This document shows positions 5,540 to 58,260 of a stretch of 64,000 bases of DNA, piece by piece. Source of the DNA: Prosapia bicincta (lineage: Eukaryota; Arthropoda; Insecta; Hemiptera; Cercopidae). The notes below the pieces were generated by a model. The model saw only the letters and a list, made by a program, of their open reading frames with translations, had not been told where the DNA came from and did no database searches. Numbering within the stretch: the first letter of the stretch is position 1; every line of letters begins with the position of its first letter. The position numbers were made by a program, and so were the translations under genes. The DNA lies in the NCBI GenBank assembly GCA_036971475.1, contig JBAIZL010000004.1:68522510-68586509 (forward strand). The letters are read 5' to 3'.

Positions 5540-5640
5540 TAAGATGTACACAAAACTCACAAATTAATAATTTATTAACTCAGACGCGTTTCAATGACAA
5601 AGTCATCATCTTCAGTGAGAGTTGCTTCTACAAACTCTAA
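5540..5640 (-). repeat. Penelope-type terminal fragment
   Basis: Shares about 80 bp with the 51751-51915 palindrome: ACTCACAAATTAAT, TTTATT, ACGCGTTTCAATGACAAAG, TCATCATC, then TACAAACTCTAAC. Here only one arm is present. It carries an intact hammerhead, listed separately. Confidence 0.75.
5579..5619 (-). ncRNA. Hammerhead ribozyme, type I, intact core
   Basis: On the minus strand: CTCA (stem I), CTGAAGA core, spacer T, stem II GATGAC/GTCATT with loop TTT (one G-U), GAA, self-complementary ACGCGT (stem III), C at position 17, TGAG returning to stem I. All conserved core bases are present; position 7 may vary. The predicted cut falls between 5583 and 5582. The very short stem III is known in Penelope-like retroelement hammerheads, which may work as dimers. 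Confidence 0.85.
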
Positions 5641-5989
5641 CATACAATTTTATTTTTTCTTGTTTAAATTGGTTTTGACGCCAAATATTTGTTTACAATT
5701 ACCAAAGTAAATTCACCCTTGTCTGTAAAATAAATACAACACAGGGTAGGAGTAGATATCATTTGTATAAAATCTCAGGATCTGACCCTTAGGTAAGACC
5801 AACCTAGCCAACCTGGTTAAATGTCTGACTGCTCTGCCTTGACCTAACCTATCAGAGGGATATTTTGACGGTGGGAAAAACCTGTTCGTTCGGAAGATCC
5901 TAATTCGATAGTTCTGGAAGAACAGGTGAAATTATTTTTTGAGACTCGGCTCGTACCTGGCGTGGGCCGGTGACCAGTCTAGATAATAT

Positions 5990-6303
5990 ATACTGGTGTA
6001 GTGCAGACCATGTAACCGTGCACTTAGTCCTGACAGATTGCACGAGATTTCTTATGTAAACATGTTGCATATTAAGAATGTGCTATACACCAACAGCTTC
6101 TGCATCCGTTATGTCTACACATATTTCAGAATTGTTTCATACGGAAGCTAATTTATCTAATATCGACCTTCTCATGCAAGTCAGTGTTTTGATAATCCTT
6201 ACCATGTTTGTAGGAGAGTATTTATACAGACCTCCTGCCTCGCCTACTGCGATCTCTCAAGGCAGGGTGCATGGCTACGTGGTCCGCACTATACCACGGT
6301 AGT
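5990..6303. repeat. MITE, copy 1 of a dispersed pair
   Basis: Inverted ends: GTAGTGCAGACCATGTAACC at the left against the complement of GGCTACGTGGTCCGCACTAT at the right. A second copy lies inverted at 57087-57405 and shares the subterminal GAGAGATCGCAGTAGGCGA. The open frames inside have no domain. Confidence 0.75.
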
Positions 6304-7244
6304 TGGTATTAAGCTTTTGAACGACAATAATCGACAGGGTTGAGCGGCGGAGAGTTTGAGTTTGGATTTATGGTGGCAGAGGGTTTGTTTGATATATATA
6401 CACAACCTACAAGTGTGGAGCTGGTTTCAGACATACGTATGACGGCCTCTTTTAGTCGCAAGACACAAAAATGTGTAACCATATGCGAGCTTGTCGTAAT
6501 AAATCAGTCCTACAGTCCAGAATAACTCGTTCATGTCATAATAACACCTTTTTCTCCAGCTTGGGGTCGTCATTCTGTTTTTTCAGAAATGCAACGAAAA
6601 GTTGTAAAAATATGTAAATTAAACTGTGCGTCGTTCATTTTATAAATGGTGGTATTTTTCACTCAGTTGCTTTAGCTTGGTTATTGTTTCACTGCTAGAT
6701 GACGCTGAATTCAGTAAAACTTTTGTCGTGAAGTTTCATTGAATTTACGGTTCAACTGTCCCTTGTTACCCGGTTCAGTTAGTAACTCTTTGTCAAGTCT
6801 AATTGAGTTGCAGTTTATTTGAGTGCGAACTACAAGAAGTTTTAATTGATTTAGAAACTCCAGTTTGATGTTTTTCAAGAAATAAAAAGCATCCTAAATC
6901 AATTGGCTGTTATTATTCTTATTTGAAACACTTACGAAAAAGTGCTTACCAGTTTCTGCACGCAACGTTTTTTTACTTTCTTTAGCTGGAAAAAATAAAC
7001 ACCGACTTGAGCAAAGTTTGTTTTTTCTTTATACTGTCTAGTTTCGTATGTAGGGGGGAGGGCCGCGAGAGGCTGGGCCTCTTCCGAAATATTTACAATA
7101 GATTATTTTTGCACATTTTAATAAATATTATTAAAGATTTATCGAAAATTAAAATTAAAAATTTATATTAATATTTATTGTAGACTTTTTACTATTAGTA
7201 TGAGGTAGACATTATTTCTTTTTGTTTGGAAAGGTTATTGTAAT
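6304..7244. other. No gene seen
   Basis: AT-rich intergenic or intronic sequence. Nothing recognisable apart from a short G-rich patch near 7050. Confidence 0.5.
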
Positions 7245-7252
7245 TTCATAAT

Positions 7253-9247
7253 TAGGGGTGGGACGATTCCTAAAATTTTCGATTCCGATTCCGATTCCGA
7301 TTCTAAAATTTTCCGTTCGATTCTCGATTCTTTAGTCGATTCTCGATTCTTTCAAGTTATATTAGCTTACATTCTAGTTCTCTAATAATTAATTTAGTTA
7401 ACATCTTGGTCATATGGCAAAACCTTTTAAAAGTTCTGTTTTAATGTAATAGGCTACACAAAACCTTCATCCTTGATTTATCAATAGGAATTTTTTAAAC
7501 ATAAAAATATATCAGAATAAAGTAATGACTTATTTTAAAGTTAAAAATGTGAACTTTACTTATTTTATGATGTTTGAAAAAATTCCTAAGCCTATTTACA
7601 TTGTCTCCCAAACAAAACAAAAATTAAAAACAAACGAACAACATAAAAAGTAAAAAATTAATACAAATAGGATAGTTTTTAATATTTAAAAGTCTGGCAG
7701 GTAATGTACATTTCTGTTCAAAAACACAATCATTTGAACACGTTGTGGGTCAAGCTAGTTTCATCGCTAGCCACATATAGCTCCTGAAGTTGAGCAAGGT
7801 TTTTCAGAAAACACTGTCGCGAGTGGGCAGACAGGTATTTTATTGCCATTGCATTTAAATGAGGGTATTTGGCACTTTGTACTGCCAAATACTTCCCAAC
7901 ATCACAATCTGGACTGGCTAATGGTTCCCCCAGATAATTGTTTACTTCTTCTTCTACTGTCAATTCCCCTGGGGTACCTTCTTCCCCAACATTCTGGATT
8001 AGTGGGGCATACCTTCTCCACATCTGGTGGGACCTTTTTTTCTGCAGGTGTCTGGAACAAGTGCAACTGATTCAGGCCTATTTTGTATTTATTACTCAAT
8101 CCCAGTTGATTTTTAACCGACTATCACTTGTAGGTCCTGTGTCTGAGGATAAAGTTTCTTCAAGTATAGATCTTTTTTGTTGATAAATTTGGGCAAAATG
8201 AAAGTTGTTTAAGTGCTTTTTCATATTTGATATATTATGTGGTTTTCCACCGTCAGTTTCTGTTAACCGTCATCGAATTGACGCGACGGCCAGTACCCTG
8301 AACCGAATACCGTCGAGCCTCTTAACGCTTTATGTTTATTAGTACTACTCAGCTGTTGTTGCTACTTTTGGAAAAATTAAGGTACAGTATTCAACAACAA
8401 GCTTCACTCTACTTACAGATGTATTTACGATGGTTTTTGTTTGATAGATAAACGCCGACGGGATTAAAAACATGATGTTATTCTAAGAGCTTTTTGTCCG
8501 TAGTTACGGGCCGACACACATATTTGTTATAACGTATTGTAATGATTTTCACTACTGTTTTCAAAATTTCACAAAACCTTAAAAGTAAGTCGGAAATATT
8601 GACTAAATATTTAGTTGTAAAATAATCCTTAAAAACGGACTTTGTGAAAGTTAAGTACAAACATTGACACTTAGATAAACTCATCCTTCTAGGAAGTAAA
8701 TTATAACGTAAATTCCTTAACAAGTAAATTATTTGGTGTTAAAACTTTTACTTAATATGAATCTTGGATAGTATTTACTGGACCTGTAACATTACTTATC
8801 AGAGAGAGAATATATTACACTTTAGTTCTATATTCAAAATATTTATAAACTCACAAATCAATCACATGTGACACGTTTACGTGTCTTAGTGATAGGCGCA
8901 AAAACACTTTTATCACCAGTCTGTTTATTATTTGGGTAGCCGGGACATGAAATTATGGTTTTGTTGTTTCTTGCTAACACAAAACACAAAAAATATCAAA
9001 ACAGTGTTGCACAGATAATAAAATTTAATTAAATCAAAAACAATGTCGGGTAAATTGGTCCGACGGAGTTTATTTACGTTTCATTTACGGTAGGAAAAAA
9101 CTATGTTGGGCCAGTTGGTCTGACACGTATTTTTATAAATATTCGGAATCGACACTTTTATGATGAAGAATCGAGTATCGACGATTCCTCGATACCACCT
9201 AGAATCGACGATTCCTGGAATCGAGAATCGGAATCAGCCCATCCCTA
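7253..9247 (-). mobile_element. hAT-type DNA transposon, defective
   Basis: The element is bounded by TAGGGGTGGGACGATTCC and the inverted GGAATCAGCCCATCCCTA. It is flanked on both sides by an identical 8-bp target duplication TTCATAAT (7245-7252 and 9248-9255). Repeated GATTCCGATTCC/GATTCTCGATTC motifs fill the subterminal zones. An 8-bp duplication is the hAT hallmark. At 1995 bp it keeps only the 3' part of a transposase on the minus strand, so it is non-autonomous. The identical duplication suggests a fairly recent insertion. Confidence 0.85.
7730..8023 (-). pseudogene. hAT transposase C-terminal fragment
   Basis: A 97-residue minus-strand frame contains EEEVNNYLGEPLASPDCDVG and, after a short gap, YPHLNAMAIKYLSA. 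This matches the layout of the hAT C-terminal dimerisation region (E-x-YL-x-EP, then FPxL...A.KYL). The usual tryptophan-rich segment and the terminal SER-VFS motif are missing or altered. A neighbouring frame (8024-8099, minus) looks like upstream coding sequence shifted by a frameshift. It lies inside the 8-bp-flanked element, is not a host gene, and is certainly non-functional. Confidence 0.7.
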
Positions 9248-57086: not shown

Positions 57087-57405
57087 TATATAGTGCGAAC
57101 CACGTAATCCTGCAATTGGCCTTGAGAGATCGCAGTAGGCGAAACGGGAGGGAGAATCAGTATAAACACTTTCCTACAAACAGGATAAGGACTGTCAAAA
57201 CAGACTTGAATGAGACTGTCAACATGAGATAAATCGATGGTAAACTAGCTTGCGTATGAAATAACAAACAATCTTGAAATCTATGTAGAGATATCGGATG
57301 CAAATCTGTTGACCTATACATCCGAATTCTGAATAGTTTTTAAAAGTGGTAATACACAAAAAATCTCGCAAGGCCAAGTGCACGGTTACGTAGTCCGCAA
57401 TTATA
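57087..57405. repeat. MITE, copy 2 (inverted)
   Basis: Ends TATAGTGCGAACCACGTAAT and GTGCACGGTTACGTAGTCCG. Inverted relative to the copy at 5990-6303 and sharing most subterminal sequence with it. Confidence 0.75.
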
Positions 57406-58119
57406 CATTATTCGTTAATTATTTTTAACGTACAGTATCGGTTATCCCAGGCAATGTGAACCGAAGATACCTCGTACAATCTAAAATTCTGATGACATTA
57501 TTTCTCCTCAAAAACCTTATGGTAAACTATTGAAATGAATAACAACGTAGTTAGTGATGTGAGAAAAGATATCTACTATGTTAGCAAATGAAAATTAAAA
57601 GACATAAATTGCAAACGTATTTTTACGTTGATATTCTGAGAACATGTCGAGAACCAAATCGTATATACATAGCCTACAGTTGGATGTTATTACTATATTC
57701 CGCTAAAACTCAACTCTGTTCGTCGGCGCTCGAATAATCGAAACTCTACTTTACTAAATATTGTCGAATAAAACAACGATATTTATACCGTAAAACGTCG
57801 TTTGGAGTCCAATGTGTTTACACGTACATACAAATATATATGTTCGAGTTGAGGCTTGACATGAAGATATCATATATCTTCCAAAGTTGACTCGCATAAA
57901 TACTAAGTAAGATTCTTGTTTAAGTATGTATAGTGAAAGCCATAAGTGAATACAAGAACACAGTGTTGCAAAGTGTAATAAAGTGATATATATATATATA
58001 TATATATATATATATATATATATATATATATATATATATATATATATATAATACGTTTTCTTGTTTAATAATTTAAAACAACACAGATTATTCAAATACA
58101 AGAATATTTATTATTTTAA

Positions 58120-58164
58120 ATCCAAAGCTTTTCGTTGGCAAACAGTACCAACATTATCAGGAAT
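58120..58164 (-). ncRNA. Hammerhead with G8A core change
   Basis: Same stems as 58216-58260, but the core reads CTGATAA, so G8 is A while C3 remains C. Expected inactive. Confidence 0.6.
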
Positions 58165-58215
58165 GAAAATTACATTAATGTAAGCTATAGCTTAGCTTAC
58201 ATTATTGTAATTTTC

Positions 58216-58260
58216 ATTCCTGATGATGTTGGTACTGTTTGCCAACGAAAAGCTTTGGAT
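58216..58260 (+). ncRNA. Hammerhead ribozyme, intact core
   Basis: ATTC, CTGATGA (58220-58226), spacer T, GTTGG/CCAAC stem II with loop TACTGTTTG, GAA, AAGCTT, T at 58256, GGAT. Differs from 46021-46065 only in the loop. On the + strand within a palindrome. Confidence 0.84.

Follow-up and report, generated by a model that had tools for sequence, protein, structure and literature searches.

We analysed a 64,000-nt stretch of the Prosapia bicincta genome (contig JBAIZL010000004.1, positions 68,522,510-68,586,509), hereafter the window, which was searched over its whole length for hammerhead ribozymes; the 2.2 Gb assembly (361 contigs) was searched for further copies. Penelope-like elements (PLEs) carry type I hammerheads with a very short stem III. 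An earlier note on this DNA had reported eight complete hammerheads; all eight sequences are present where it placed them, and seven are complete by a strict descriptor, whereas the eighth (56509-56560) has a mismatch in stem I. The strict descriptor required CTGANGA, a spacer of 0-2 bases, a stem II of at least 3 pairs, GAA, an A...T palindrome of 4, 6 or 8, a base other than G at position 17, and an unbroken stem I of at least 3 pairs; the relaxed descriptor also permitted one stem I mismatch. A covariance model was trained on eight sequences from the families we call F1, F3 (with its variants) and F4, with F2 and F5 held out. The features are given below, with L numbers denoting loci fetched from the genome.

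5579-5619, minus strand: F1 hammerhead in an arm at about 5548-5644, of the family of PLE-linked arms (strict descriptor, trained model)
20068-20077: left copy of the direct repeat ATTATTTGTA flanking the F2 pair (outer-end word comparison, L001)
20077-20438, minus strand: F2 left arm, tailed
20197-20232, minus strand: F2 hammerhead of the left arm (strict descriptor; held-out model match, E=0.027)
20228-20467, minus strand: remnant of a PLE endonuclease C-terminus, left arm (tblastn, 59% over 83 aa against L019)
20388-20612, plus strand: remnant of a PLE endonuclease C-terminus, right arm (tblastn, 56% over 82 aa)
20608-20643, plus strand: F2 hammerhead of the tail-less right arm (strict descriptor; held-out model match, E=0.027)
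20722-20731: right copy of ATTATTTGTA (outer-end word comparison, L001)
46021-46065, minus strand: F3 hammerhead in an arm at 45955-46088 with (TA)n at its end (strict descriptor, model)
51790-51832, minus strand: F1 hammerhead, left arm of a palindrome (strict descriptor, trained model)
51857-51905, plus strand: right arm of the F1 palindrome, truncated, 5' half of the ribozyme lost (by eye)
53478-53523, plus strand: F4 hammerhead in a single arm from about 53475 (strict descriptor, trained model)
56509-56560, minus strand: F5 hammerhead-like site with one stem I mismatch (relaxed descriptor; held-out model match, E=0.058)
58051-58200, minus strand: F3 left arm, tailed, from (TA)n to the centre (locus L031)
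58119-58165, minus strand: degenerate F3 hammerhead, CTGATAA for CTGATGA (trained model)
58216-58260, plus strand: F3 hammerhead of the tail-less right arm (strict descriptor, trained model)
60483-60700: third F3 palindrome, both ribozymes broken, right arm tailed (model; tail by eye)

The strict descriptor recovered seven of the eight sites without a further match in the window, and matched none of 200 dinucleotide-shuffled windows. The site at 56509-56560(-) was recovered by the relaxed descriptor and is the weakest of the eight; its stem II has 4 pairs and its palindrome is 8 nt long. The single spacer base described earlier is borne out at all eight sites, the seven strict matches having exactly one although 0-2 were permitted. 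Five window sites of F1, F3 and F4 matched the trained model at E<1e-10, and the model added three degenerate F3 copies that had not been listed before: 58119-58165(-), 60572-60608(+) and 60548-60603(-). Its next matches were the held-out sites, with a background that starts at 0.12, which lends weak support to F2 and F5 as hammerheads. The earlier note had also proposed an Rfam hammerhead covariance model as a check; Rfam 15 gave no hammerhead match at any of the eight sites, either with gathering thresholds or with the limit relaxed to E=10, and by the letter of that check this counts against the finding. The miss probably arises because these are minimal variants without the stem III built into the Rfam models, and the claim is therefore one of a minimal hammerhead variant, not of membership in an Rfam family. 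MicroRNA matches in the same scan fell below gathering scores and were regarded as artefacts caused by palindromes and TA repeats. The reported observation thus largely holds: the sites have the core, stems I and II, the A15.1-U16.1 pair, a base other than G at position 17 and ends in stem I that define a type I hammerhead, and among the “at least five repeat families” that had been claimed, F1, F2, F3 and F4 are repeated in genome searches. The sites are predicted to be active ribozymes and may act as dimers.

In 326,717 bases, made up of the window and 122 fetched loci of which some overlap and many were chosen for the hammerhead motif, the relaxed descriptor found 144 matches of 43 distinct sequences, overlapping loci counted. 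In every one of the 144 an extra base stands between core A9 and stem II, and the palindrome is AAGCTT, AACGTT, ACGCGT or ATGTACAT. Both sides change in 10 of the 13 pairs of the training alignment, a covariation between families, and 98% of its cells are paired compared with 27-39% when partners are slid, a figure that is partly circular because the rows were picked for pairing. PLE hammerheads as such have already been published. Cervera and De la Pena in 2014 and Lunse et al. in 2017 reportedly described minimal type I hammerheads at PLE ends, with a palindromic, very short stem III and an action as dimers; the layout here is the same, except for the extra base after A9 in every match. A hammerhead with an extra residue at this point is said to have been described by De la Pena and Flores in 2001, in that case a single viroid ribozyme, whereas here it is found in several retroelement families.

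The link to PLEs could be followed into coding sequence for F1, F2 and F3. In a sample of 20 segments of about 1 kb, each 3' of a selected match among 86 GIY-YIG family matches, an F1 arm was present in 10 (six of them with a descriptor-passing ribozyme), an F3-like ribozyme in four and neither in six. Locus L061 has an open reading frame (ORF) of 333 aa with a Pfam GIY-YIG match over the cut-off; roughly 300 nt past its stop codon lies an F1 ribozyme, with an inverted F1 ribozyme beyond. In six loci (L017, L019, L027 and L029 by tblastn, L020 and L024 by eye) an F2 arm directly follows PLE coding sequence on its 3' side; the PLE ORF terminates inside the ribozyme in L020 and L029 (by eye), and both F2 arms of the window code for about 80 residues resembling the end of the L019 endonuclease (tblastn). 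For F3, L102 is a nearly full-length PLE with an F3 ribozyme at each outer end; on its minus strand are ORFs of 515 and 327 aa separated by a frame break, and an inverted 5'-truncated copy is present. The reverse transcriptase domain (Pfam RVT_1) is over the cut-off in F2 and F3 PLEs, including L102, and the 327-aa ORF shares 32% identity with that of L061 over 294 aa; likeness to L061, together with motifs picked out by eye, makes GIY-YIG the putative endonuclease of the F2 and F3 PLEs. Reverse transcriptase and GIY-YIG in one ORF, the mark of a PLE, are accordingly both present, with the F3 ORF broken in frame. Since the F1, F2 and F3 proteins are just 30-42% identical in the main alignments, we treat them as separate lineages, and F4 may be placed among PLEs by its shared anatomy. 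Ribozymes of other families occur in the flanks of five F2 loci. A fixed 5' end of F4 copies at stem I was considered and rejected: fetched copies reach further upstream, and that boundary is therefore a feature of the window copy.

The proposal in the earlier note that most palindromic miniature inverted-repeat transposable elements (MITEs) here derive from Penelope terminal regions is partly supported, with linkage for three of the five families. Not shown is the word “most”: the near-perfect palindromes of about 200 bp at 37555-37777, 44670-44875 and 59050-59254, and a further palindrome at 31694-31888, have no descriptor match and no PLE link.

First-look candidates numbered 4086 with the F2 query, 2430 and 566 with two F3 queries and 1568 with the F4 query; the best 40 candidates of each search were scored, and these totals are therefore not copy numbers. 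The pairs share one layout, a ribozyme on the minus strand followed by one on the plus strand, with 5' ends facing inward and 3' ends outward. F3 pairs are embedded in (TA)n, and in all 30 scored pairs, found with a query that was itself a one-tail pair, one arm stops at about GTTGTTTTAA and the other continues into a tail before (TA)n. Exactly one tail was also found in 8/8 further F3 pairs obtained with a query lacking centre and tail (five chosen since match positions showed two arms, two among 15 single matches, and L102), in 2/2 longer F3 pairs (from match coordinates), and, scored by BLAST, in 16/16 F2 pairs (again from a one-tail query) and 12/12 F4 pairs. Over the three families this makes 68/68 pairs, or 65/65 without the duplicate loci recognised by eye (L009/L012 and L085/L086). 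The count was made without pairs in L108, L114 and L117 that are diverged or truncated, L088 (cut by the locus end), the window pair at 60483-60700, every single arm, and the overlapping loci L004, L005, L006, L010, L011, L014 and L015; partial tail matches in another register more than 100 nt from the arms (L001, L009, L012) and an inverted tail piece adjoining L130 were also left uncounted. Inverted copies of pseudo-long terminal repeats (pLTRs) with an optional tail, as known from PLEs, are thus present in the F2, F3 and F4 pairs, and L102 has a partial 5' pLTR; a strict rule of one tail per pair may be new.

No clear trend towards a shorter 5' end in tailed arms was seen by eye over the 30 F3 pairs. 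Among the 15 F3 copies fetched as single matches, two (L105, L106) turned out to be pairs whose arms are intact, and several others are single arms; some single F3 arms have a 5' end flush with (TA)n. The tails of F3 and of a variant (L020, L117) have ACAAGAAAAC(G/A)TAT in common although the arms clearly differ (by eye), which makes this a candidate recognition or start-site element. Beside the F3 arm of the window, an F3-like variant palindrome at 46115-46280 has lost its centre and ribozymes; its right end is tailed, with (TA)n outside (all by eye).

Candidate short target duplications can be counted in F2 and F4, the (TA)n setting of F3 precluding judgement. Words of 8-15 bp are shared by the outer ends of 10/15 F2 pairs, against 15/210 mismatched controls, and of 5/10 F4 pairs, against 7/90, and on this basis we argue that each pair is one insertion. 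Arms of the same pair are also more alike than arms of different pairs, with mean divergences of 0.097 versus 0.119 in F4 (permutation test, p 0.0016) and 0.072 versus 0.083 in F2 (0 of 5000 permutations); F3 subfamily alleles are common to both arms of a pair, and the arms of L102 are 99.8% identical over 1368 bp. The centres of the 30 F3 pairs are all different; two are perfect palindromes without a loop, and many contain filler resembling nearby sequence (by eye).

With the motifs, the coding linkage of F1, F2 and F3, the pair geometry, the single tail, the outer repeats of part of the pairs and the likeness of paired arms before us, we are confident, though short of certain, that minimal type I hammerheads reside in the 3' pLTRs of several endonuclease-bearing PLE families, and that the ribozyme “MITEs” are head-to-head, 5'-truncated PLE ends, each most likely the product of one two-strand-primed insertion. 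The PLE protein would cut both strands of an AT-rich target, and each freed 3' end would prime reverse transcription of the element RNA from a start 3' of the ribozyme. A distal start site would give a tailed complementary DNA (cDNA) and a proximal one a tail-less cDNA, and the two, joined at their inner ends, would form the head-to-head pair. Priming on two strands, with one cDNA per start site, would explain the geometry, the tail rule, the outer repeats and the similar arms together. We infer this order of steps, and one RNA per insertion, in which case no start site would be used twice because one RNA would serve two polymerases; a pair of sister RNAs, kept together by the ribozyme palindrome, would fit equally. 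A biochemical precedent is the purified Anolis PLE protein PAc, which, in the available part of that study, cuts and extends AT-rich sites on both strands and uses two internal start sites of reverse transcription, the tail being the sequence between them (PMC11167929). The two systems share, as far as that text goes, a hammerhead near the start site, an AT-rich target and two start sites with the tail between; the Anolis hammerhead, studied in vitro, lies at the start of the ORF (PMC11167929), whereas here it sits at the ORF end or immediately beyond it.

Several observations weigh against the explanation of the sites as ribozyme-bearing PLE ends inserted by two-strand priming. No shared word of 8 was present in 5/15 F2 and 5/10 F4 pairs, and one of the F4 words is a TA run. 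The nearest arm was the pair's own partner in just 4/11 F4 and 4/15 F2 pairs (8/26). Several queries were one-tail pairs, and the tail tally covers the best 40 candidates per search. Pfam GIY-YIG is below the cut-off in L019 and unreported in L102 and L020, and a descriptor-passing ribozyme is kept in only 47/60 F3 arms and 19/30 F3 pairs. In the Anolis assay, as presented in the available text, start sites on top and bottom strands were alike and insertion was independent of ribozyme cleavage (PMC11167929).

Self-priming is the model put forward in the available text for Adineta PLEs (PMC3846280): the end of one cDNA, or of an antisense RNA, turns back on itself and the strand serves as its own template. 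It would also yield arms that are alike within a pair, as in L102. A copied arm should be tailed too, yet one arm lacks the tail in all 68 pairs, and self-priming alone therefore leaves the absent second tail unexplained; the two loop-less centres are hardly the product of a fold-back, and filler in many of the others speaks against it as well. We regard this explanation as improbable. Less probable still, and very unlikely in our estimate, is that the conserved letters reflect coding of the PLE ORF end and not a ribozyme. The F2 core does overlap the end of the ORF, with the stop codon within the ribozyme in L020 and L029, but the stems vary among families and yet still pair, and F1, F3 and F4 have an open frame through the core that differs from the frame used in F2 (by eye). 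Moreover, two F1 or two F3 RNAs cofold with a double hammerhead as the lowest-energy form, while for F2, F4 and F5 the lowest-energy duplex is another. As a separate observation, the core frame nCT-GAN-GAN at F1, F3 and F4 sites is open across the ribozyme, with a stop right after it (by eye). Lastly, MITE-like DNA transposons with a captured ribozyme, mobile as fixed double-stranded units, would be short, palindromic and numerous with outer-end repeats, as the candidate copies are, but that identity needs a fixed interior and equal ends, whereas the centre differs in 30/30 F3 copies, the single tail makes the ends unequal and the arms continue into PLE coding sequence, which leaves this reading scarcely credible.

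The part that the ribozyme may play can be considered at the 5' end of L102. The full-length copy starts at the first base past the predicted cut, or one base earlier via a shared T, and next to it the same GGATTTAAA start is partly repeated; in this one copy, the 5' end is the trace that a ribozyme-made template end would be expected to leave. Six single F3 copies (L123-L128) were extended as a probe for full-length 5' ends, and 0/6 segments matched the PLE; L102 is therefore the one case of a 5' end at the cut. Most short pairs retain an uncleaved ribozyme in both arms, and cleavage of the 3' ribozyme is therefore dispensable for insertion, as in the Anolis data. We tentatively suggest, as a possibility that we rate well below even, that the hammerhead works within the insertion machinery: two RNAs may be held together by its palindromic stem III, or a protein dimer may find two start sites on one RNA, with the result that both strands are extended per event, always one from each site, and the full-length template would owe its 5' end to cleavage of the upstream hammerhead.

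Inverted pLTRs, tails and target duplications are already in print. The available text on Adineta vaga Penelope describes head-to-head inverted pLTRs with palindromic junctions and 8-10 bp target duplications, and a 31-bp tail that is optional on one inverted pLTR (PMC3846280). The arrangement of inverted pLTRs head to head with a tail on one is shared with that element; here, in contrast, there are many short pairs, with exactly one tail in every scored pair, and the word “hammerhead” is absent from that paper in the text available (PMC3846280). Retrozymes, as covered in the accessible text, are likewise non-autonomous, with type I hammerheads and high copy number, but are small tandem repeats with classical hammerheads, unlike the head-to-head or single PLE ends found here (PMC7229834); a retrozyme identity needs ribozyme-bearing tandem units and was rejected, the fetched copies being head-to-head or single. 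The Anolis paper (PMC11167929) was the sole result of a literature search that combined PLEs, two-strand priming and inversion, and searches for hammerheads with palindromic inverted repeats and for PLE hammerheads in an insect genome returned none, the main PLE-hammerhead papers lying outside the scope of these searches. The many candidate head-to-head pairs with sharp ends form a natural record of the PLE insertion reaction, and their mirror-image placement is a clue to how the elements insert into DNA. Through the single tail, and through a 5' end located at the predicted cut, it becomes countable whether one RNA or two serve each insertion, and the same counts address whether the ribozyme makes the template end.

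A repeat family at 13382-13480, 31692-31790 and 31801-31888 includes the palindrome at 31694-31888, in which GAA-ACGCGT-C, a ribozyme 3' half, is present without CTGANGA; it may represent the terminus of a sixth PLE family, with the centre lost. Elsewhere in the window are a hAT dimerisation-domain fragment at 7730-8071(-), an RNase H fragment of a retrotransposon without long terminal repeats at 16766-17626(-), and a tandem array at 27120-28210 with 14 copies of a 78-bp unit (97% matches), long stretches of which are open in one frame.

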